DNA of 64,000 nt. Source: Sulfurimonas paralvinellae. Lineage in GTDB: Bacteria; Campylobacterota; Campylobacteria; Campylobacterales; Sulfurimonadaceae. How positions within the stretch are numbered: position 1 is the first letter of the stretch; each line of letters starts with the position of its first letter. Shown here in pieces: positions 1 through 12,687 of this stretch. Both the position numbers and the translations under genes were made by a program. Below the pieces are notes generated by a model that searched no databases, was not told the origin of the DNA, and worked only from the letters and a program-made list of their open reading frames with translations. The stretch spans positions 434,001 through 498,000 of the forward strand of contig NZ_CP041406.1 in assembly GCF_014905135.1 (NCBI RefSeq), read 5' to 3'.

Positions 1-1
1 A

Positions 2-571
2 AACTATGCCATCGATGCATCTACTGGAACAGTGACGCTCACAGCAGCAGGCGCAGCCGTAGTCAATGGTGGTGGCAATCTTCCAGACTTTACTGTAACA
101 GCAGCCTCTACAACAGGACAAACTTCCTCTGCTACAGCCAATGTAAACCCAGCCGATACCGATACAAATGAGCCATTAACATTAACAGTGACTCCGGTAG
201 ACGGTCCATTCGTAGAAGACAGCACAAACGCAGGCGATACAGTAGCAACATCCACTGCAAATGACCCTGACGGCGGCGATATCACCTACACAATAGATGA
301 CACAACAAACTATGCCATCGATGCATCTACTGGAACAGTGACGCTCACAGCAGCAGGCGCAGCCGTAGTCAATGGTGGTGGCAATCTTCCAGACTTTACT
401 GTAACAGCAGCCTCTACAACAGGACAAACTTCCTCTGCTACAGCCAATGTAAACCCAGCCGATACCGATACAAATGAGCCATTAACATTAACAGTGACTC
501 CGGTAGACGGTCCATTCGTAGAAGACAGCAAAAACGCAGGCGATACAGTAGCAACATCCACTGCCAAATGA
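2..571 (+). CDS. Giant repeat adhesin, upstream fragment (partial, interrupted)
   Basis: This is an open stretch of the same tandem-repeat protein that continues to 5489. It runs off the left edge, so the true start is outside the window. It encodes nearly two copies of a roughly 102-residue unit containing PVDGPFVEDS and ITYTIDD motifs, a beta-rich cadherin/VCBS-like pattern rich in Thr, Asp and Ala. Reading stops at 569-571 only because one extra C near 565 shifts the frame relative to every clean copy downstream. I read the stop as an artefact or a recent mutation rather than a real end of gene. Confidence is high that it is part of the adhesin, low that it is a separate product. Confidence 0.6.
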   Translation, partial: NYAIDASTGTVTLTAAGAAVVNGGGNLPDFTVTAASTTGQTSSATANVNPADTDTNEPLTLTVTPVDGPFVEDSTNAGDTVATSTANDPDGGDITYTIDDTTNYAIDASTGTVTLTAAGAAVVNGGGNLPDFTVTAASTTGQTSSATANVNPADTDTNEPLTLTVTPVDGPFVEDSKNAGDTVATSTAK

Positions 572-1060
572 CCCTGACGGCGGCGATATCACCTACCAAT
601 AGATGACACAACAACAAACTATGCCATCGATGCATCTACTGGAACAGGACGCTCACAGCAGCAGGCGCAGCCGTAGTCAATGGTGGTGGCAATCTTCCAG
701 ACTTTACTGTAACAGCAGCCTCTACAACAGGGACAAACTTCCTCTGCTACAGCCAATGTAACCCAGCCGATACCGATACAAATGAGCCATTAACATTAAC
801 AGTGACTCCGGTAGACGGTCCATTCGTAGAAGACAGCACAACGCAGGCGATACAGTAGCAACATCCACTGCAAATGACCCTGACGGCGGCGATATCACCT
901 ACACAATAGATGACACAACAAACTATGCCATCGATGCATCTACTGGAACAGTGACGCTCACAGCAGCAGGCGCAGCCGTAGTCAATGGTGGTGCAATCTT
1001 CCAGACTTTACTGTAACAGCAGCCTCTACAACAGGACAAACTTCCTCTGCTAGCCAATGT
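560..1060 (+). other. Cluster of frame-breaking indels inside the repeat array
   Basis: Compared with the clean units, this stretch carries an extra C near 565, a lost A near 596, three extra bases near 611, TG lost near 648, an extra G near 731, single A losses near 761 and 841, a lost G near 993 and CA lost near 1051. Almost all are one- or two-base length changes, many in short homopolymers. They break the frame several times within two units while the following ten units are perfect. This looks more like consensus error in a collapsed or thinly covered repeat than gene decay. Confidence 0.7.
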
Positions 1061-1103
1061 AAACCCAGCCGATACCGATACAAATGAGCCATTAACATTA
1101 ACA

Positions 1104-4100
1104 GTGACTCCGGTAGACGGTCCATTCGTAGAAGACAGCACAAACGCAGGCGATACAGTAGCAACATCCACTGCAAATGACCCTGACGGCGGCGATATCA
1201 CCTACACAATAGATGACACAACAAACTATGCCATCGATGCATCTACTGGAACAGTGACGCTCACAGCAGCAGGCGCAGCCGTAGTCAATGGTGGTGGCAA
1301 TCTTCCAGACTTTACTGTAACAGCAGCCTCTACAACAGGACAAACTTCCTCTGCTACAGCCAATGTAAACCCAGCCGATACCGATACAAATGAGCCATTA
1401 ACATTAACAGTGACTCCGGTAGACGGTCCATTCGTAGAAGACAGCACAAACGCAGGCGATACAGTAGCAACATCCACTGCAAATGACCCTGACGGCGGCG
1501 ATATCACCTACACAATAGATGACACAACAAACTATGCCATCGATGCATCTACTGGAACAGTGACGCTCACAGCAGCAGGCGCAGCCGTAGTCAATGGTGG
1601 TGGCAATCTTCCAGACTTTACTGTAACAGCAGCCTCTACAACAGGACAAACTTCCTCTGCTACAGCCAATGTAAACCCAGCCGATACCGATACAAATGAG
1701 CCATTAACATTAACAGTGACTCCGGTAGACGGTCCATTCGTAGAAGACAGCACAAACGCAGGCGATACAGTAGCAACATCCACTGCAAATGACCCTGACG
1801 GCGGCGATATCACCTACACAATAGATGACACAACAAACTATGCCATCGATGCATCTACTGGAACAGTGACGCTCACAGCAGCAGGCGCAGCCGTAGTCAA
1901 TGGTGGTGGCAATCTTCCAGACTTTACTGTAACAGCAGCCTCTACAACAGGACAAACTTCCTCTGCTACAGCCAATGTAAACCCAGCCGATACCGATACA
2001 AATGAGCCATTAACATTAACAGTGACTCCGGTAGACGGTCCATTCGTAGAAGACAGCACAAACGCAGGCGATACAGTAGCAACATCCACTGCAAATGACC
2101 CTGACGGCGGCGATATCACCTACACAATAGATGACACAACAAACTATGCCATCGATGCATCTACTGGAACAGTGACGCTCACAGCAGCAGGCGCAGCCGT
2201 AGTCAATGGTGGTGGCAATCTTCCAGACTTTACTGTAACAGCAGCCTCTACAACAGGACAAACTTCCTCTGCTACAGCCAATGTAAACCCAGCCGATACC
2301 GATACAAATGAGCCATTAACATTAACAGTGACTCCGGTAGACGGTCCATTCGTAGAAGACAGCACAAACGCAGGCGATACAGTAGCAACATCCACTGCAA
2401 ATGACCCTGACGGCGGCGATATCACCTACACAATAGATGACACAACAAACTATGCCATCGATGCATCTACTGGAACAGTGACGCTCACAGCAGCAGGCGC
2501 AGCCGTAGTCAATGGTGGTGGCAATCTTCCAGACTTTACTGTAACAGCAGCCTCTACAACAGGACAAACTTCCTCTGCTACAGCCAATGTAAACCCAGCC
2601 GATACCGATACAAATGAGCCATTAACATTAACAGTGACTCCGGTAGACGGTCCATTCGTAGAAGACAGCACAAACGCAGGCGATACAGTAGCAACATCCA
2701 CTGCAAATGACCCTGACGGCGGCGATATCACCTACACAATAGATGACACAACAAACTATGCCATCGATGCATCTACTGGAACAGTGACGCTCACAGCAGC
2801 AGGCGCAGCCGTAGTCAATGGTGGTGGCAATCTTCCAGACTTTACTGTAACAGCAGCCTCTACAACAGGACAAACTTCCTCTGCTACAGCCAATGTAAAC
2901 CCAGCCGATACCGATACAAATGAGCCATTAACATTAACAGTGACTCCGGTAGACGGTCCATTCGTAGAAGACAGCACAAACGCAGGCGATACAGTAGCAA
3001 CATCCACTGCAAATGACCCTGACGGCGGCGATATCACCTACACAATAGATGACACAACAAACTATGCCATCGATGCATCTACTGGAACAGTGACGCTCAC
3101 AGCAGCAGGCGCAGCCGTAGTCAATGGTGGTGGCAATCTTCCAGACTTTACTGTAACAGCAGCCTCTACAACAGGACAAACTTCCTCTGCTACAGCCAAT
3201 GTAAACCCAGCCGATACCGATACAAATGAGCCATTAACATTAACAGTGACTCCGGTAGACGGTCCATTCGTAGAAGACAGCACAAACGCAGGCGATACAG
3301 TAGCAACATCCACTGCAAATGACCCTGACGGCGGCGATATCACCTACACAATAGATGACACAACAAACTATGCCATCGATGCATCTACTGGAACAGTGAC
3401 GCTCACAGCAGCAGGCGCAGCCGTAGTCAATGGTGGTGGCAATCTTCCAGACTTTACTGTAACAGCAGCCTCTACAACAGGACAAACTTCCTCTGCTACA
3501 GCCAATGTAAACCCAGCCGATACCGATACAAATGAGCCATTAACATTAACAGTGACTCCGGTAGACGGTCCATTCGTAGAAGACAGCACAAACGCAGGCG
3601 ATACAGTAGCAACATCCACTGCAAATGACCCTGACGGCGGCGATATCACCTACACAATAGATGACACAACAAACTATGCCATCGATGCATCTACTGGAAC
3701 AGTGACGCTCACAGCAGCAGGCGCAGCCGTAGTCAATGGTGGTGGCAATCTTCCAGACTTTACTGTAACAGCAGCCTCTACAACAGGACAAACTTCCTCT
3801 GCTACAGCCAATGTAAACCCAGCCGATACCGATACAAATGAGCCATTAACATTAACAGTGACTCCGGTAGACGGTCCATTCGTAGAAGACAGCACAAACG
3901 CAGGCGATACAGTAGCAACATCCACTGCAAATGACCCTGACGGCGGCGATATCACCTACACAATAGATGACACAACAAACTATGCCATCGATGCATCTAC
4001 TGGAACAGTGACGCTCACAGCAGCAGGCGCAGCCGTAGTCAATGGTGGTGGCAATCTTCCAGACTTTACTGTAACAGCAGCCTCTACAACAGGACAAACT

Positions 4101-5489
4101 TCCTCTGCTACAGCCAATGTAAACCCAGCCGATACAACTCCTAACGATAACCCTCCTGTTGCAGTAGATGATATAATCTTAACTACTGTCGATGAAGGTG
4201 ATGTAATATCTATTGCACAAGGGATATTAACGAGAAATGATTATGATTTAGATTTGAGTGATTTAAATATTACAAATACATATAATGCTCAAGCAGGAAA
4301 TGTAAGTGGTGTAAATCCTGTTTCTTTTATCGATCAATCTTCATTTGGTCTATTGGCACAGTCAGCGGATAATACGCTTGAACAACCTGCAGATTCTGAA
4401 GCTAATCCTTTAAATAATGATATTGCACATGCGGTGGAAATTTCAAGAGCTCAGTTTGGTCAAGTTAGCAGTGCTCAATCAGGAGAAGTAGGTGATTCAA
4501 GTTTACCAAGTTTTAAATGGACTGGTTATATTGATGATGATGGCTCTACACGTGATAGAACAGATCAAGATTTTATTAAAGTTTATTTATATGCTGGGGA
4601 AAAAATTGTTTTAGATATCGATAATGGAGATGATGGGGATAGAGATACTGGGATAGATGATCAAGATGTAGATACATATCTGGTTTTATATGATGCTCAA
4701 GGTAATGAATTAGCAAGAAATGATGATGCTTCTGCTGATTTAGGCGGAACTGGTTCTACAGATAGTGATTATCATCATGGGACATCTCTTGATGCTTATT
4801 TAGAGCATACAGTAACACAAGATGGTTATTATTATGTTGATGCTACTGCATGGGATAATTCTAACAATGGTATTTCAGATGATGATGGAAAATATGATTT
4901 ATGGATCTCTATAGACCCTGTTCCAGGTACTGACTTAGCAACATTTGATTATGACATTAGTGATGGAAAAAGTTCGGATTCTGCTACTGTAAGTGTTGAT
5001 ACCATAGCAGATTCAAATCAAATAGATGGAACAGATAGTAATGAGATACTTATAGGAACTGTTGGTGTTGTTGATACTCTGAATGGCGGGGGTGGAGATG
5101 ATGAGATTGTTGTTGATGGAACAGATATAGTGGATGGTGGTACAGGTTTTGATACAGTTCATATTGATACAGCTATTACTCTTGATACGACAACAACATT
5201 GGATTTTAGTAAGTTAGATAACATAGAAAAAATTGATTTTTCCACTAATAGTCATAATGATACAATAACAAATTTATCCTTAGATGATGTTCTTGACATG
5301 ACAGATACCAATAATACGCTTGAAATTACAGGTGACAGTGCAGATCAGGTAAATGTCGATACAAGTGGATGGACTCAACAGAGTGCTGTAGATGATGGTA
5401 CTGTGACAACATATACATATTCAAATGATTCTACATCAGACAGTGTTACACTCATTGTAGATGACAATTTGCAAAATTCAGGTTTATAA
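1104..5489 (+). CDS. Giant repetitive surface adhesin with RTX-like C-terminus (partial)
   Basis: The 1461-residue readable part begins at an internal GTG inside a repeat, so it is the C-terminal part of a much larger protein. Residues 1 to about 1010 are ten near-identical 102-residue cadherin/VCBS-like repeats. Next come a divergent cadherin-like segment (PPVAVDDIILTT), a region resembling the pre-peptidase C-terminal (PPC) beta-sandwich at about 1125-1265 (YLYAGEKIVLDI, DTYLVLYDAQG), and Asp/Gly-rich RTX-like calcium-binding motifs (LNGGGGDDEI, VDGGTGFDTV) at about 1315-1345. Acidic repeats plus RTX motifs near the C-terminus are typical of LapA-type adhesins exported by type I secretion, so a cell-surface or biofilm role is inferred. 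No type I secretion genes are in this window. The unique C-terminal DNA is visibly more AT-rich than the repeats. Confidence 0.75.
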   Translation: MTPVDGPFVEDSTNAGDTVATSTANDPDGGDITYTIDDTTNYAIDASTGTVTLTAAGAAVVNGGGNLPDFTVTAASTTGQTSSATANVNPADTDTNEPLTLTVTPVDGPFVEDSTNAGDTVATSTANDPDGGDITYTIDDTTNYAIDASTGTVTLTAAGAAVVNGGGNLPDFTVTAASTTGQTSSATANVNPADTDTNEPLTLTVTPVDGPFVEDSTNAGDTVATSTANDPDGGDITYTIDDTTNYAIDASTGTVTLTAAGAAVVNGGGNLPDFTVTAASTTGQTSSATANVNPADTDTNEPLTLTVTPVDGPFVEDSTNAGDTVATSTANDPDGGDITYTIDDTTNYAIDASTGTVTLTAAGAAVVNGGGNLPDFTVTAASTTGQTSSATANVNPADTDTNEPLTLTVTPVDGPFVEDSTNAGDTVATSTANDPDGGDITYTIDDTTNYAIDASTGTVTLTAAGAAVVNGGGNLPDFTVTAASTTGQTSSATANVNPADTDTNEPLTLTVTPVDGPFVEDSTNAGDTVATSTANDPDGGDITYTIDDTTNYAIDASTGTVTLTAAGAAVVNGGGNLPDFTVTAASTTGQTSSATANVNPADTDTNEPLTLTVTPVDGPFVEDSTNAGDTVATSTANDPDGGDITYTIDDTTNYAIDASTGTVTLTAAGAAVVNGGGNLPDFTVTAASTTGQTSSATANVNPADTDTNEPLTLTVTPVDGPFVEDSTNAGDTVATSTANDPDGGDITYTIDDTTNYAIDASTGTVTLTAAGAAVVNGGGNLPDFTVTAASTTGQTSSATANVNPADTDTNEPLTLTVTPVDGPFVEDSTNAGDTVATSTANDPDGGDITYTIDDTTNYAIDASTGTVTLTAAGAAVVNGGGNLPDFTVTAASTTGQTSSATANVNPADTDTNEPLTLTVTPVDGPFVEDSTNAGDTVATSTANDPDGGDITYTIDDTTNYAIDASTGTVTLTAAGAAVVNGGGNLPDFTVTAASTTGQTSSATANVNPADTTPNDNPPVAVDDIILTTVDEGDVISIAQGILTRNDYDLDLSDLNITNTYNAQAGNVSGVNPVSFIDQSSFGLLAQSADNTLEQPADSEANPLNNDIAHAVEISRAQFGQVSSAQSGEVGDSSLPSFKWTGYIDDDGSTRDRTDQDFIKVYLYAGEKIVLDIDNGDDGDRDTGIDDQDVDTYLVLYDAQGNELARNDDASADLGGTGSTDSDYHHGTSLDAYLEHTVTQDGYYYVDATAWDNSNNGISDDDGKYDLWISIDPVPGTDLATFDYDISDGKSSDSATVSVDTIADSNQIDGTDSNEILIGTVGVVDTLNGGGGDDEIVVDGTDIVDGGTGFDTVHIDTAITLDTTTTLDFSKLDNIEKIDFSTNSHNDTITNLSLDDVLDMTDTNNTLEITGDSADQVNVDTSGWTQQSAVDDGTVTTYTYSNDSTSDSVTLIVDDNLQNSGL

Positions 5490-6215: not shown

Positions 6216-6574
6216 AGTTAGAAAGTGAGCTTTTCAAAAAGACAGTAATTATCTACACTCTGATCTTTTCTCTGTTTATTGGGTTTACTTTTTTTGTACT
6301 CTTATTTTTTTTAGAGTCTGAAGCTGCTTTTTATGTGGGCGCTGCGATCAGTGTCGTATTTGTTCTGCTTTCACTGCTTTTCTTTCTTTTTTTAGGACGT
6401 TATTTTAAAAATATTGCGGCTGATATGGAAGCATTGATGGAGTACACGAATGCTATCAATGAAAAAGAGTACACTGCAGAAGTAAAGATAATGCACTTTG
6501 TCGAGTTTTTGCAACTCTCTGTGCTTTTAAAAAACATCGCCAAGAGGCTGCATCAAAAAAAGAAAAAGTCTTAA
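6209..6574 (+). CDS. Sensor-like membrane protein lacking kinase core
   Basis: A GTG start at 6209 overlaps the regulator stop by 7 bp, which suggests translational coupling. The 121-residue product has two transmembrane helices (about 10-34 and 40-65) with almost no periplasmic loop, then a HAMP-like or coiled-coil cytoplasmic tail ending in a Lys-rich stretch. The layout matches the first third of a small histidine kinase such as the one at 45953, but there is no His box, N box or glycine box. It ends on a TTAA shared with the stop of dnaX on the other strand. It may be a truncated kinase or a kinase-less membrane partner of the regulator. Confidence 0.7.
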   Translation: MLKLESELFKKTVIIYTLIFSLFIGFTFFVLLFFLESEAAFYVGAAISVVFVLLSLLFFLFLGRYFKNIAADMEALMEYTNAINEKEYTAEVKIMHFVEFLQLSVLLKNIAKRLHQKKKKS

Positions 6575-8319
6575 ATCTTCGACTGAACAGTTACCTTTTT
6601 AGCTTCAAACATCTCTATGGCTTTTTGCACCATTGGCTCTTTTGTAATGTCTGTGCCGTCACGCTCATCCTGAATGGAAGACTCGGCGCAGTTTGTAACA
6701 CAGCTCGCACCGCCGCCGGCTTCTATATCTTCAACTGTTGACGCACTTTGTCCGCCTTGTGGTTGTGTTTGCTCTTGGGGCATAGTTTCTTCTGGTTTTT
6801 CTTTTACAGGGTTGGAACAGGCTATACCTTTGATCTGTGTCTCAAAAGAGAAGGTCTCCCGTACCAGCTGTTTGATAACACCGTAACCGTGCTTGAGGCT
6901 CTTTTTGCACGCTTCATCGGCACAGCTTTCCCATGTAAGCACATTGTCTTCATACGAGACAAAGGAAATCTGCTGTTCAAAACACTCACCAAGAGCCGCA
7001 TTTCTGTCTTTTATCTTTGCGACGAGTTCATTGAATTTTGCAAGAGCGGGATCACTTCTATTTTCTTGTTGGTGCATTGGCTCATCTGGTACAATTGTTT
7101 TTTCTTCTTGTGTGATAACCTCCTGTTTCGGTTGGCTTGCTGCAGGAATAGGTTGGGCAATGACGCCGTTCATTTCAGGTGTGGTCTCTTGCAGTTTTAC
7201 CTTTGGTGTCGGTACAGGTGTTTCAGACTGCGTAAGAATTTCCGGACGTGAGACATCTTTTTGGAAGCTCTCTATCATCTGGTCAATCTCACGGATTCGG
7301 AGCGCTTCTATCATCTTGAAAAATATCATACTTAGTACAAATGAACCGTCTGCATTGATACTAAAGAGATATTTCGATTCGCTTAAAATTCTGAAAAATC
7401 TGTCAAGGACAAGGGTTGAAAAGAGGGCGTCTTGGTTATACATCTTCTCTTTTAAAAATGCTATCAGCTCATCGACGACCATCTCGCTCTCATAATCTTC
7501 AAGCACTTTTGTATACGCGACAAGTGCTGCGTAATCTTTGGCAAAAACAGCGTCGAAGATCTGTGCAATGAATTTAGGGTCAACTAGCCCCAGCATATCG
7601 GTAACGGTTCTGACATCGACATGATTTTTGGAGTAGATAATGGCCTGATCGAGCAGCGTGAGCGTGTCACGCAGACTACCGCTGCCGCTTCGTGCAAGGA
7701 TCTCAAGTGCATCGTGTTCATAGCTGATGCCCTCAAGGTTTAAGATGTGTGCCAAGTGGTCGACTATCTTGTTTGTTGCAATGCTCTTAAATCGAAAATG
7801 CTGCGTTCGGCTAAGAATGGTTGCCGGAAGTTTGAGCGGATCGGTCGTAGCAAGAATGAACTTGACATACTCAGGCGGCTCTTCAAGCGTTTTTAGCAGG
7901 GCATTAAAGGCCTCTTTTGTGAGCATATGCACTTCATCGATGATGAAGATCTTGTAACGTGCGGCAGCCGGTTTGTATTTAGTCTGCTCTATGAGGTCTC
8001 GAATATCGTCTATCTTGCGTGAGGAAGCACCGTCCATCTCGATGATGTCCATGTGCCGTCCCTCTTTTGCCATGATGCAGTTGGAGCATTTGTCACAGGG
8101 TTGATGACTCATTCCCTCTTCACAGATAAGCGCTTTTGCAAAGATACGGGCTGTTGAAGTCTTACCGCTGCCTCGAAGTCCGGAAAAGAGGTATGCGTGA
8201 GAGAGGCGGTTGGCATCAAGTGCCAAAGAGAGTGTCTGCGCAATAGTTTCTTGACCAATAAGTTCATCAAAATTCGACGGACGATATTTTCGTGCTAATA
8301 CTTCATGTGCTTCTTGCAA
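6571..8319 (-). CDS. dnaX: DNA polymerase III subunit gamma/tau
   Basis: The clamp-loader ATPase loads the sliding clamp at the replication fork. The N-terminal AAA+ domain has Walker A GLRGSGKTSTA, a four-cysteine zinc module (CEEG...CDKCSNC), Walker B-type DEVHML and the SRTQHFRF sensor region. The rest is a collar domain and a Gln/Pro-rich tail. I chose the TTG at 8319, giving 582 residues that begin with QEAHEVLARKYRP after the start, because AGAGGAG lies 7 bases upstream. A longer reading to an ATG at 8376 adds 19 residues that do not fit the family. No clear frameshift signal for a gamma form was recognised. The gene is convergent with the sensor fragment. Confidence 0.95.
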   Translation of the reverse strand: MQEAHEVLARKYRPSNFDELIGQETIAQTLSLALDANRLSHAYLFSGLRGSGKTSTARIFAKALICEEGMSHQPCDKCSNCIMAKEGRHMDIIEMDGASSRKIDDIRDLIEQTKYKPAAARYKIFIIDEVHMLTKEAFNALLKTLEEPPEYVKFILATTDPLKLPATILSRTQHFRFKSIATNKIVDHLAHILNLEGISYEHDALEILARSGSGSLRDTLTLLDQAIIYSKNHVDVRTVTDMLGLVDPKFIAQIFDAVFAKDYAALVAYTKVLEDYESEMVVDELIAFLKEKMYNQDALFSTLVLDRFFRILSESKYLFSINADGSFVLSMIFFKMIEALRIREIDQMIESFQKDVSRPEILTQSETPVPTPKVKLQETTPEMNGVIAQPIPAASQPKQEVITQEEKTIVPDEPMHQQENRSDPALAKFNELVAKIKDRNAALGECFEQQISFVSYEDNVLTWESCADEACKKSLKHGYGVIKQLVRETFSFETQIKGIACSNPVKEKPEETMPQEQTQPQGGQSASTVEDIEAGGGASCVTNCAESSIQDERDGTDITKEPMVQKAIEMFEAKKVTVQSKI

Positions 8320-8390
8320 AATGAGAACTCCTCTAGTTATTAAAAAGATTTTATCATTTATAGAGTTAAAAAACACTATAATTATCTACA

Positions 8391-9740
8391 ATGAAAAAAT
8401 TTAATGAATTACGTGCACAAAACAATCAGTTTATATATAAATCTTATAAAATTTCAAAAAATGAAACGGAAATCTCTTTAGAGTTTCACTATCAACTCAA
8501 AGAACAAGAGCAGACAACGGATTTTCATCACCGACTTGTCTTGCCAAAAGATGAGAAGATCGTGACAGAGACAAATATGGACAATATAGTTTTTCATATA
8601 GGTCTTGCCGAAGCGATAAGCTACTATAAAATAGCAGTGCCGCAAACCTTCATTATTGAGTGCGGGAATCTCTGCGAGTCGCAAAAAAAGTGGTTTCAAA
8701 AGCTCTATTTTAACGGTCTTGGTGAGTTTATCTATCTTAACAAGATCGAAGTGACACAAGATGACCTCGTAGAGTTCATCGCTTTGCCGACAGAGGGTTT
8801 TGCAAAGATAGCAGTGCAGACACGTGAGAACAATATCATTCCAATCGGCGGCGGAAAAGATTCGCTTGTGAGTTATGAGCTTTTAAAAGAGGCTTTTCCC
8901 GAGTCGCTGCTTTTTTCCATGAACCCGATCGTCGCTTCAAAAAAGATACTTGACAAACATCCTTCTCACGCAATAGAGCTGCGACGTGAGCTTGATCTTG
9001 AGAAGATATTTGACTTCAACAAGCGGGGCTATCTCAACGGGCATATACCTTTTTCATCCATTGTCGGTTTTATTTCCATCTGGCTTGGACTGCTGACAAA
9101 AACGAAGTACATCGTTCTCTCGAACGAATCAAGTGCCAATGAAGAAAACATCGTTTACAACGGACAAAAAATCAACCATCAGTATTCAAAATCCATAGAG
9201 TTTGAGAATGATTTTCGAGCGTATGTTTCAGAGTATATTACCGAGGATGTGGAGTATTTCAGCTTTTTGCGTCCGCTTGATGAGATACACATTGCCAAGC
9301 TTTTCAGCGTTGAAGCGCGTGAGCACTTTTTTGATTTTCGCAGCTGCAATGTCGGAAGCAAAAAGAATGAGTGGTGCGGCAAGTGTCCGAAGTGTCTCTT
9401 TACCTACATCATGCTCTGCAACTATATCGATGATGCAACGCTGCGTGAGATATTTGGCAAAGATATGCTGGATGACCCTGAACTTCAAGAACTTTTTGAT
9501 GGGCTCAGCCAGAGTGATGCCGTCAAACCTTTTGAGTGCGTGGGAACCTATGATGAAGTCAATTATGCACTCTCGAAAAAGTACAACAGTTACAAAAAAG
9601 AGGAGCTGCCATATCTGCTGAAAAACTATAAGCCGCAAGAGATGCATTATAATCTTGCAGTTGATTACGATGGGCAAAATAATCTGCCGCAAAAATTTAA
9701 AGAGGTGCTGCGTGAGCATGTTGAACGACTTAGTTTCTGA
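8391..9740 (+). CDS. murL: MurL-type UDP-MurNAc-L-Ala-L-Glu epimerase
   Basis: The 449-residue product resembles the MurL family, which epimerises the terminal L-Glu of UDP-MurNAc-L-Ala-L-Glu to D-Glu in cytoplasmic peptidoglycan precursor synthesis. What I see: a PP-loop-like PIGGGKDS motif at residues 151-158, a conserved NESSANEEN segment at about 245-255, and a Cys motif CGKCPKC at about 330. Assignment rests on this motif pattern plus the directly following MurD-type ligase, the pairing known from Xanthomonas MurD2-MurL. A TATAAT box at 8377-8382 ends 8 bases before the ATG and there is no Shine-Dalgarno sequence, so the mRNA may be leaderless. An unrelated PP-loop enzyme is the main alternative. 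Confidence 0.75.
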   Translation: MKKFNELRAQNNQFIYKSYKISKNETEISLEFHYQLKEQEQTTDFHHRLVLPKDEKIVTETNMDNIVFHIGLAEAISYYKIAVPQTFIIECGNLCESQKKWFQKLYFNGLGEFIYLNKIEVTQDDLVEFIALPTEGFAKIAVQTRENNIIPIGGGKDSLVSYELLKEAFPESLLFSMNPIVASKKILDKHPSHAIELRRELDLEKIFDFNKRGYLNGHIPFSSIVGFISIWLGLLTKTKYIVLSNESSANEENIVYNGQKINHQYSKSIEFENDFRAYVSEYITEDVEYFSFLRPLDEIHIAKLFSVEAREHFFDFRSCNVGSKKNEWCGKCPKCLFTYIMLCNYIDDATLREIFGKDMLDDPELQELFDGLSQSDAVKPFECVGTYDEVNYALSKKYNSYKKEELPYLLKNYKPQEMHYNLAVDYDGQNNLPQKFKEVLREHVERLSF

Positions 9741-10974
9741 CCTTGAACAGTATAAAAAGATAGCGATTTTCGGTTATGGCGTTGAGGGAAGGTCCTTTCA
9801 TGCTTTTGCTGAGAAATATCTGCCTGATGTTGCCATCAGCATAGTCGATAAAAATTATGCAGATGATGATAATTATCTCGATGGTCTGCGTGAGGCAGAG
9901 CTTATCGTAAAATCTCCCGGAATCTCTTTACATACGCTTGGTATCGATTATGATGCATACAATTTTACCTCGATAACGGAACTTTTTTTAAAACATTTCG
10001 GCTCACAAATTATCGGTGTGACGGGAACAAAAGGTAAAAGTACACTTGTAACGCTTATAGATTCTATGCTTAAAAACGCAGGAAGAAAATCACTTCTATG
10101 TGGTAATATCGGTATCTCCCCACTGCAGGCGATAGAGACGATAGATGAAGAGACAACGGTTGTTATGGAACTCTCTTCCCATCAACTCCATCATGTCAAC
10201 CACTCCCCTCACATAGCTGTTTTGACAAATCTTTTTCCTGAACATTTGGACTATTATGAGGATCTGGCTGATTACTATGAAGCAAAGTTCAATATCTTCA
10301 GACATCAAAATGCTAGAGATATCTTTATCTATAATCTGCAAAATCCAAATAATTACTTTGATACTGAAAAAGCGCCAAGCAAGCATACATACAATGTTTT
10401 TGCAAATGAGCTGAAGAATGAGGTTCAGTTTAACATTAAAAATGGCTACATCCATCATGCGACATTGCAGATACTTGAAAAATTGGCAGAAATTTTAGAG
10501 ATAGATGAGAGTACCTTTATGAAGACGGTTACAACATTTCAAACCCTGCCACATCGTTTGGAATTTGTAGATGAGATTGATGGCGTGAGCTATATAAATG
10601 ACTCGATCTCGACCATACCGCAGGCATCTATGGAAGCGATGAAGATCTTGAAAAATGTTGATACGATAATTCTTGGCGGTTATGACAGGGGAGTTGACTA
10701 TAGTGAACTTGTGAACTTCCTGCGTGAGAGTAATGTGAAAAATATTATCTGTTTTTCAGATACCGGTAAGCAAATCTATGAGAAAATTAATGAAGAAGAA
10801 AATAACAAACACCTGTTTTATATGCACGACTTGCGTGAGAGTGTGAAAAAAGCAGGTGAGTGTGCAAGAGAGATAGTGCTCTTTTCTCCGGCAGCTTCAA
10901 GTTTTAATAGTTACAAAAACTTTGCTGAACGTGGAGAAGAGTTTAAGTCTCTGGTAAACAATTTAAAAGGATAG
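9718..10974 (+). CDS. murD: MurD-type UDP-MurNAc-L-alanine:glutamate ligase (likely MurD2)
   Basis: This cytoplasmic Mur ligase adds glutamate to UDP-MurNAc-L-Ala using ATP. An N-terminal Rossmann-like domain (IAIFGYGVEGRS) precedes the central P-loop VTGTKGKST at about 102-109, the catalytic segment with ELSSHQL, and a C-terminal domain with LPHRLEFV and NDSISTIP. The start ATG at 9718 gives 418 residues and overlaps murL by 23 bp, with GAGG upstream; an earlier ATG at 9655 would lie deep inside murL and is unlikely. Tight coupling to murL suggests the L-Glu-adding MurD2 subtype, whose product MurL would epimerise. If instead it adds D-Glu it would be ordinary MurD. Confidence 0.85.
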   Translation: MLNDLVSDLEQYKKIAIFGYGVEGRSFHAFAEKYLPDVAISIVDKNYADDDNYLDGLREAELIVKSPGISLHTLGIDYDAYNFTSITELFLKHFGSQIIGVTGTKGKSTLVTLIDSMLKNAGRKSLLCGNIGISPLQAIETIDEETTVVMELSSHQLHHVNHSPHIAVLTNLFPEHLDYYEDLADYYEAKFNIFRHQNARDIFIYNLQNPNNYFDTEKAPSKHTYNVFANELKNEVQFNIKNGYIHHATLQILEKLAEILEIDESTFMKTVTTFQTLPHRLEFVDEIDGVSYINDSISTIPQASMEAMKILKNVDTIILGGYDRGVDYSELVNFLRESNVKNIICFSDTGKQIYEKINEEENNKHLFYMHDLRESVKKAGECAREIVLFSPAASSFNSYKNFAERGEEFKSLVNNLKG

Positions 10975-10977
10975 AAA

Positions 10978-11307
10978 ATGCCGTTTATTGCTGTTGATGA
11001 AGAGAGTTTTGATGATATTGTCGAGCGTGAATTTGAAAAGGGTCATACGGTCATATTGAAGTTTGGTTCGGCTTACTGTGATTCATGTCAGTTGATGGAG
11101 TTTGAACTTGAAGAGGTGCATGACAGAGTGACAAAAGTGTCCATTTTAGATATTGACGTTGGTGAATGTTTAGGATTGATGCAGCGTTTTGAGATAGAAC
11201 AGGTGCCGACGACGCTCATTTTTCAGACCGCTTCATCGCAACTGCTTTATAAAAATGGCATAATGCTGGCAGATGATATGATTGATATCATATTAAAAGA
11301 GAGGTAG
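10978..11307 (+). CDS. Thioredoxin-fold protein with CDSC motif
   Basis: The 109-residue protein has a thioredoxin-like fold with a CDSC active-site motif at residues 34-37 (GSAYCDSCQ) and the cis-Pro loop in EQVPTTLIF. There is no signal peptide, so it is probably cytoplasmic. The standard thioredoxin motif is WCGPC, so redox properties may differ. It starts 3 bp after the murD stop and is probably co-transcribed with the Mur genes. A role in thiol-disulfide exchange is inferred and the partner is unknown. Its stop lies inside a hairpin shared with the end of rho. Confidence 0.8.
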   Translation: MPFIAVDEESFDDIVEREFEKGHTVILKFGSAYCDSCQLMEFELEEVHDRVTKVSILDIDVGECLGLMQRFEIEQVPTTLIFQTASSQLLYKNGIMLADDMIDIILKER

Positions 11308-11327
11308 TTAGAAAACTAACTACTTTT
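11304..11327. terminator. Bidirectional hairpin between thioredoxin-like gene and rho
   Basis: An 8-bp perfect stem (GTAGTTAG, loop AAAA, CTAACTAC) is followed by TTTT on the + strand and, read on the other strand, again by T-rich loop and flank. It includes the stop codons of both converging genes, so it can end transcription in both directions. Confidence 0.6.
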
Positions 11328-12687
11328 CTGTATTCATACTCTCCAAGAACTCTTCGTTTGTCGCTTTTTTACCCATTGTATTATAGATAAATTTCAACGC
11401 TTCGACTTCATTATCTTGTTTATGAAGCATTTGACGAAGGATAAAGACTTTTTGCAGTGTCTCTTTGCCGATAAGCAGTTCATCTTTACGTGTACCTGAT
11501 TTAAGAATGTCAATAGCAGGGAAAATTCTTCTGTCTGCGATTTTTCTGTCAAGCACGACTTCCATATTACCGGTACCTTTGAACTCTTCGAAGATCACTT
11601 CATCCATACGGCTTCCTGTATCAACAAGCGCTGTTGCGATGATAGTCAAACTGCCGCCGTTTTCGATGTTACGAGCTGCACCAAAGAAACGTTTTGGTTT
11701 GTGGAGTGCGTTGGCATCAACACCACCGGAAAGAACTTTACCGCTTGATGGTGTCACTGTATTGTACGCACGTGCAAGACGTGTGATAGAGTCAAGCAAG
11801 ATAACAACATCACGACCGATCTCAACGCGGCGTTTCGCTTTTTCTATAACCATCTCCGCTACTTTTACGTGATTTTTAGCCGGCATATCAAAAGTAGAAG
11901 AGTAGACTTCACCCTTAACGCTGCGCTCCATGTCCGTTACCTCTTCAGGTCTCTCATCGACAAGTAGAACCATCAGATCAACTTCTGCATGATTTGCCGT
12001 GATACCGTGAGCAATCTCTTTGAGAAGCTCTGTCTTACCGCTTCTAGGCGGTGCGACAATCAAACCACGCTGACCTTTTCCGATAGGTGAGAAAAGATCA
12101 AGCATACGACCTGTCAGTTTTTTCTCGTTGTACTCGAGTTTGAGCTGTTCTTCCGGATAAAGTGGTGTAAGGTTGTCAAAGAGAGGACGTTTTTTGCTCT
12201 CTTCAGGTGGAAGAGAGTTTACCGCTTCTATTTTGATAAGTGCATAGTAACGCTCCTGATCTTTTGGAGGGCGTACTTGGCCGGTTACCACATCCCCGTT
12301 TCTAAGGGCAAATCTTTTTATCTGCGTGTTGGAAACATAGGCATCATTGATAGATTCGTTGAATGACTTGTCGATAGAACGGATAAAGCCGTAACCATCC
12401 TGCATAATCTCTAAAATCCCTGAAAAGAGTATATAGCCGCCTTGAGCTGTTTGCGCTTTAAGGATCTCAAAGATGACATCCTGACGTTTTAGCTCATTTG
12501 GATCTTCGACTCCAAGTTCTGTTGCAATCTCTACAAGTTCCTGAATACTTTTTGTACGAAGCTCTTCAACACTTGAACCTTTTACCGGTGTATGTGTGCG
12601 TTTAGCGTTGTTATTGTTGTTATTGTTGTTGTTTTTATTGTTTTGTTTTGAATTTTTGCGGGGTTGCGATGAAGTGTTTTCACTCAT
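11320..12687 (-). CDS. rho: Transcription termination factor Rho
   Basis: Rho is the hexameric RNA helicase that ends transcription. The 455-residue product has the N-terminal Rho helix-turn-helix region ([13 protein letters not shown]), the RNA-binding cold-shock-like domain (GYGFIRS), and the RecA-type ATPase with Walker [10 protein letters not shown] and the [13 protein letters not shown] segment. The first 30 residues are an Asn-rich tract with nine consecutive Asn, encoded by an AAC/AAT run prone to length change. The start ATG has AAGG upstream. A promoter with TTGACA and TAAAAT boxes lies at 12763-12792, leaving a leader of about 75 bases. Confidence 0.97.

Follow-up and report, generated by a model that had tools for sequence, protein, structure and literature searches.

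The window analysed here, a stretch of 64,000 nucleotides from Sulfurimonas paralvinellae, carries an overlapping pair of genes, murL and a gene for a MurD-type ligase (murD2), located between dnaX and rho and followed by a small thioredoxin-domain gene (Table 1). A preliminary description of this DNA had recognised the pair in a probable Campylobacterota, and had proposed that the ligase adds L-Glu to the peptidoglycan precursor, that MurL then epimerises it, and that the glutamate racemase MurI is thereby bypassed. The overlap of 23 bp lies exactly as it was claimed (9718-9740, stop included), and the host was correctly placed, as the closest relatives, at 64-86% identity, are Sulfurimonas. 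The longest frame of the ligase gene opens at a TTG (9655), but the ATG at 9718 was preferred, in agreement with relatives.

Table 1. Genes, residues and motifs of the dnaX-rho interval (positions in the window)
Feature	Positions	Strand	Remarks
dnaX, bounding the interval on the left	6571-8376	-	NF006280, 765 bits; longest frame given; actual start possibly more internal
TATAAT, candidate -10 box for murL	8377-8382	+	8 nt before ATG
murL	8391-9740	+	ATG 8391, stop 9738-9740; 449 aa; NF041275, E 1.1e-75
PP-loop motif of MurL, G153-GGKDS-158	8847-8864	+	predicted ATP/PPi binding; G153-D157 invariant in 37 sequences; TtuA profile match
Cys4 motif of MurL, C319-x9-C329-xx-C332-xx-C335	9345-9395	+	all four Cys invariant
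murD2, predicted L-Glu-adding ligase of MurD type	9718-10974	+	418 aa; TIGR01087; MurD2 clade; switch residues
MurD2 switch residue E175	10240-10242	+	E. coli D182, X. oryzae E197
MurD2 residue I297	10606-10608	+	E. coli K319
MurD2 switch residue R324	10687-10689	+	E. coli K348, X. oryzae R358
MurD2 residue F396	10903-10905	+	E. coli L416, X. oryzae F435
Small thioredoxin-domain gene	10978-11307	+	PF00085, E 2.3e-11; 3 nt after murD2
rho, bounding the interval on the right	11320-12687	-	TIGR00767, 678 bits

The product of the first gene matches the MurL model NF041275 over model positions 9-393 of 447 (254.9 bits, E 1.1e-75), which upholds its identification as MurL. This score is far below the curated cut-off of the model (700 bits, set for Xanthomonadales), and identity with the MurL of X. 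sacchari is 28%. No Pfam family was matched at 1e-3, the only matches being weak ones to DUF6395 and QueC. In an alignment of 37 diverse MurL sequences, the GGGKD motif and four cysteines are invariant, and these motifs are shared from Xanthomonas relatives to Sulfurimonas. The murL transcript had also been described as leaderless. The position of the TATAAT makes it plausible that transcription begins at the ATG or beside it; however, a sigma-70 scan returned no full promoter, and in relatives the hexamer stands farther from the start codon (about 13-20 nt), so that leaderlessness is not conserved and can be retained for this gene as a tentative suggestion.

The ligase scores 281 bits against TIGR01087, above the cut-off of 212. 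Mutagenesis of X. oryzae MurD2 established that L-Glu specificity is set by E197 and R358, and a K319T mutant of E. coli MurD takes L-Glu (PMC8788868). We compared a canonical set of 31 MurD sequences (30 from murI-positive genomes of the genus Sulfurimonas, plus E. coli) with ligases encoded next to murL. The canonical proteins have D/K/K/L at positions D182/K319/K348/L416 in 31 of 31 cases. Among MurL-linked ligases, the first of these positions is E in 75 of 78 and D in three, the K348 position is R in all 77 readable sequences, and the K319 position is I in 73 and L in four of the 77 readable. The window ligase has neither the D nor the K of canonical MurD at D182 and K348. Its position 394 is S where X. 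oryzae has P433, a residue that proved dispensable for specificity in the published mutagenesis (PMC8788868). The MurL-linked ligases of three Lachnospiraceae (L065, L067, L069) combine D at the first switch position with R at the second, and their glutamate specificity could be relaxed.

In the MurD tree, all MurL-linked ligases separate from the canonical ones with 99% support. The window protein does not join the canonical clade but lies inside a Campylobacterota MurD2 subclade (support 100), to which MurD2 of Bacillota and Bacteroidota is sister (98); it thus stands with MurL-linked MurD2 and away from canonical MurD, in keeping with the preliminary reading. It is 56-79% identical to MurD2 of other Sulfurimonas, and 25-30% identical to the canonical set, congeners' MurD included. 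Residues and phylogeny support its assignment as an L-Glu-type MurD2, for which use of L-Glu is predicted. The main branches of the MurL tree are broadly those of the MurD2 tree, and a Campylobacterota/Bacillota branch of MurL is placed apart from the Xanthomonas branch. The former includes a natural MurL-MurD2 fusion, found in one Oscillospiraceae genome as a single frame of 1020 aa with no stops, and MurD2 adjoins MurL in nearly all relatives for which enough contig is available. Three Pseudonocardia plasmids (L042, L043, L044) carry a MurL-like gene with no adjoining MurD2; it is convergent with a long gene, annotated as a WD40-repeat protein in two of the three, and perhaps has another role.

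Other sources of D-Glu were sought in the host genome (two contigs, one of 2,029,060 bp; 2,078,871 bp in total; rated 100% complete). The search covered TIGR00067, PF01177 and Aminotran_4. No murI was detected with TIGR00067 at E <= 1e-3, nor any member of the Asp/Glu racemase family PF01177, and the genome has a single MurD. Its two Aminotran_4 proteins are, as in congeners, IlvE (TIGR01122, 394 bits) and a short protein similar to PabC; the Aminotran_4 survey revealed no D-amino-acid transaminase (Dat), and synthesis of D-Glu via Dat was rejected for this genome. The absence of murI, PF01177 and a second murD, together with the L-Glu switch residues, sustains the proposed bypass of MurI.

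Our main finding is that murL and murD2 very probably (about 0.93) constitute the MurL-MurD2 branch of peptidoglycan synthesis and are the host's only source of D-Glu for the cell wall. We infer the enzyme activities, and the order of events, from sequence comparisons. MurD2 would attach L-Glu, and inversion would follow in place: MurL would activate the terminal L-Glu by adenylating its alpha-carboxylate (ATP to AMP and PPi), making the alpha-proton acidic, and this proton would be lost and regained before hydrolysis. The division of labour proposed in the preliminary description, with addition of L-Glu by MurD2 and epimerisation by MurL, thus agrees with the HMM match, the switch residues, the tree and the absence of murI.

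The distribution of the two systems is strictly complementary. Among 397 Campylobacterota genomes from 68 genera, four have MurL, all in the genus Sulfurimonas and all without murI. The full set of 135 genomes of this genus contains 18 with MurL, 107 with murI and none with both, and the 79 good-quality genomes divide into 10 and 69 with none left over (mutual exclusion: Fisher 7e-13, kinship ignored). Across phyla, murI is above cut-off in 0 of 19 MurL-positive genomes, with weak superfamily matches in six. An apparent lack of MurD in one genome, G405, in a screen at 1e-40 was rejected: MurD2 is present, its HMM match being split in two. The cultured vent Sulfurimonas that could be identified, five in number (G000, G036, G128, G405 and G446; most of them only probably identified), all have MurL, and G325, probably the deep-sea-sediment strain B2, has murI, a contrast between vent and sediment that is confounded by kinship.

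These data bear on whether the ligase could be an ordinary but diverged D-Glu-adding MurD, supplied with D-Glu by an unrecognised racemase or transaminase, the first gene being unrelated in function. TIGR01087 does name the ligase murD above its cut-off, and the Xanthomonas MurL and MurD2 are only 28-30% identical to the window pair. Such an enzyme would nevertheless have to carry L-Glu-type residues, cluster with MurL-linked ligases rather than with those of its congeners, and work in a genome with no MurI, PF01177 protein or Dat; the strict exclusion of MurL and MurI in 135 genomes, and the existence of the fusion protein, further argue for the MurL-MurD2 route, and we consider an ordinary MurD very improbable.

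Some Campylobacterota have neither murI nor MurL. A second strong Aminotran_4 protein was observed in four such genomes of one genus (G025, G140, G204 and G311; genus code g21), as well as in G060, G173, G208 and G350 (f10) and in L191-L193. The three of these second proteins that were scanned score as D-amino-acid transaminases with NF005209 (332-355 bits); TIGR01121 gives them 258-279 bits, close to that model's cut-off (277). Because Dat-like proteins occur in genomes without murI and MurL, Campylobacterota probably use three routes to D-Glu: MurI, MurL-MurD2 and Dat. In G383, a 99%-complete genome from another family, murI, MurL and PF01177 were all not found, and Aminotran_4 detects a single strong protein besides a fusion of PabB with PabC; either a further D-Glu source or an assembly gap may account for this.

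MurL has been described as an enzyme with no known domains that requires ATP and produces AMP (PMC5808125, PMC8788868). An AlphaFold2 model of the window protein (pLDDT 92.3, pTM 0.92) was compared with known structures by Foldseek, and the top matches were QatC (E 1.1e-5) and QueC (E 7.4e-5 and 9.7e-4), with probability 1.00. TM scores are 0.65-0.70 by QueC length, the ATPase half being well covered, and 0.33-0.39 by MurL length, so that QueC leaves the outer parts of MurL unexplained. QueC is defined by the motifs SGGxDS and C(x)8CxxCxxC, and performs ATP-driven work on a carboxylate (PMC13329287). The phosphate loop of MurL, GGGKDS, begins with G instead of S, and its cysteine motif, C(x)9CxxCxxC, is spaced one residue longer than the zinc motif of QueC (C188/C197/C200/C203 in E. 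coli). A MurL profile also matches the PP-loop of TtuA (E 0.004).

The gathering cut-off of PF06508 (QueC) was not reached, with matches in only two of 37 MurL sequences (best E 0.11), and we therefore call MurL QueC-like rather than QueC. A PDB sequence search with a four-sequence MurL profile retrieved nothing meaningful, and hhalign against the single E. coli QueC sequence aligned the PP-loop alone (probability 5%); the assignment thus relies on the fold, the motifs and the TtuA match. The 2026 QueC-family literature that was searched, including PMC13329287, makes no mention of MurL. We predict that MurL is a PP-loop enzyme of QueC fold, likely with a Cys4 metal site, the metal being deduced from the cysteine motif. 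It would resemble the QueC/QatC/Cap9 family (PF06508) in fold, phosphate loop, Cys4 motif and use of ATP on a carboxylate, and differ from it by additional N- and C-terminal parts and by its substrate, UDP-muramyl dipeptide. Such a fold fits the ATP-to-AMP chemistry. The discoverers of MurL reportedly proposed carboxylate adenylation on chemical grounds, and the predicted PP-loop offers this mechanism a candidate ATP site.

The downstream enzyme, MurE, normally needs D-Glu. This need, the fixed position of MurL beside MurD2 across phyla (once as a fusion), and the invariance of its motifs between Xanthomonas relatives and Sulfurimonas all speak against a reading in which MurD2 adds L-Glu and MurL does not epimerise it, so that the wall keeps L-Glu or MurL has a different substrate. 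The function of MurL in the Campylobacterota branch is a prediction from sequence, and substrates of the QueC family are many (PMC13329287), yet we judge this reading very improbable, and epimerisation by MurL is retained.

Gene order in relatives suggests how the pair reached its present site. Two arrangements divide the genus. The first half has murD after mraY, as do two other genera of the family, and carries murI in the rho-dnaX interval. In the second half, murD is missing after mraY, which in most genomes checked is joined directly to the next gene, and the rho-dnaX interval contains either murI-murD or murL-murD2. The orders compared are rho-murI-murD-dnaX and dnaX-murL-murD2-(trx)-rho: murI-murD is co-oriented with rho and dnaX, whereas murL-murD2 points the other way. 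The thioredoxin gene accompanies murL-murD2 in most, not all, MurL-positive Sulfurimonas, and in L056, a relative from a different genus, the pair is located elsewhere. In an rpoB tree, MurL-positive and murI-positive species are intermixed, with three changes, and an AU test rejects a single MurL-positive clade (p = 1.3e-4). A tree of rho and dnaX agrees with it, its starred branches forcing three changes; the count of switches thus comes from a one-gene and a two-gene tree, in which several genomes are metagenome-assembled (MAGs).

These arrangements point to in-place exchange of an essential cassette, murI-murD against murL-murD2, with at least three switches. In the order of events proposed here, for the second half of the genus, canonical murD would first have moved from mraY to the side of murI, between rho and dnaX; murL-murD2, from a lineage of Bacillota, Bacteroidota or Patescibacteria type, would then have taken over this interval, which would afterwards have switched between both cassettes at least three times. 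The host itself would have lost MurI and had its canonical MurD replaced. Once murI and murD were neighbours, both functions may have become exchangeable in a single step. A Xanthomonas donor was rejected, as MurL and MurD2 are on the Bacillota/Bacteroidota side of their trees.

The mosaic of MurL-positive and murI-positive species could conceivably be an artefact of MAG binning, and three of the genomes concerned (G438, G413, G440) are indeed MAG-like, in 130-280 contigs. This is improbable: the contigs with murL also have rho and dnaX of Sulfurimonas, and the tree of these two genes concurs with that of rpoB; G438, 99% complete and MurL-positive, has no murI; and a single contig of G403 contains both murL and rpoB, so that binning error is no explanation for that case. 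An alternative for the history of the locus, to which we would give somewhat under even odds, is a single gain of murL-murD2 at the base of the second half of the genus, with later reversals to murI-murD by recombination. Campylobacterota MurL does form one clade, and the tree of MurL and MurD2 is partly like that of rho and dnaX; however, murI and murD of the murI-positive species look vertically inherited, which favours repeated entry of murL-murD2. On balance, we lean towards a joint reading in which the rho-dnaX interval is a repeated exchange site for alternative cassettes and MurL combines epimerase activity with a PP-loop scaffold of QueC type. In that case, the carboxylate activation of 7-deazaguanine enzymes would have been adapted to the inversion of an amino acid in a precursor of the wall.

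The reference for this system is the pair MurL XOO_1319 and MurD2 XOO_1320 of Xanthomonas oryzae (Feng et al. 2017/2019; reviews PMC8788868, PMC5808125). The Sulfurimonas and Xanthomonas pairs are alike in having two adjoining genes, the same switch residues and a genome without MurI or Dat, and X. sacchari has the same murL-murD2 order with an overlap of 20 bp. ATP use and the AMP product are proven for X. oryzae MurL and predicted for its Sulfurimonas counterpart. Unlike the Xanthomonas pair, that of Sulfurimonas belongs to a MurL branch with Bacillota, Bacteroidota and Gracilibacteria, comes from a phylum absent from the published list, occupies a rho-dnaX interval in place of murI-murD, and has a thioredoxin gene downstream. 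The canonical MurI-MurD of the same genus acts at the same pathway step and from the same rho-dnaX interval, but there Glu is racemised before ligation, MurD has D/K/K/L, and murI is present.

Previous knowledge of the MurL-MurD2 route comes mainly from Xanthomonas and actinobacteria. The pathway itself is not new; the phylum, the history of the locus and the fold assignment appear to be. An alternative route to the cell wall is extended to a further phylum, and because it strictly replaces MurI inside one genus, closely related species are available for matched comparisons of physiology. The locus would exemplify two essential genes swapped at once after becoming adjacent, and for MurL, which had no known domain, the predicted fold suggests a mechanism that can be tested. 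Annotation is also concerned: standard models (TIGR01087) misname MurL-linked ligases as D-Glu-adding MurD, and NF041275 would leave the window MurL unnamed (255 bits against a cut-off of 700). Elsewhere in the window, positions 1-4135 consist of a 306-bp unit repeated 13.5 times with 99% match, within a giant gene resembling those of surface proteins.
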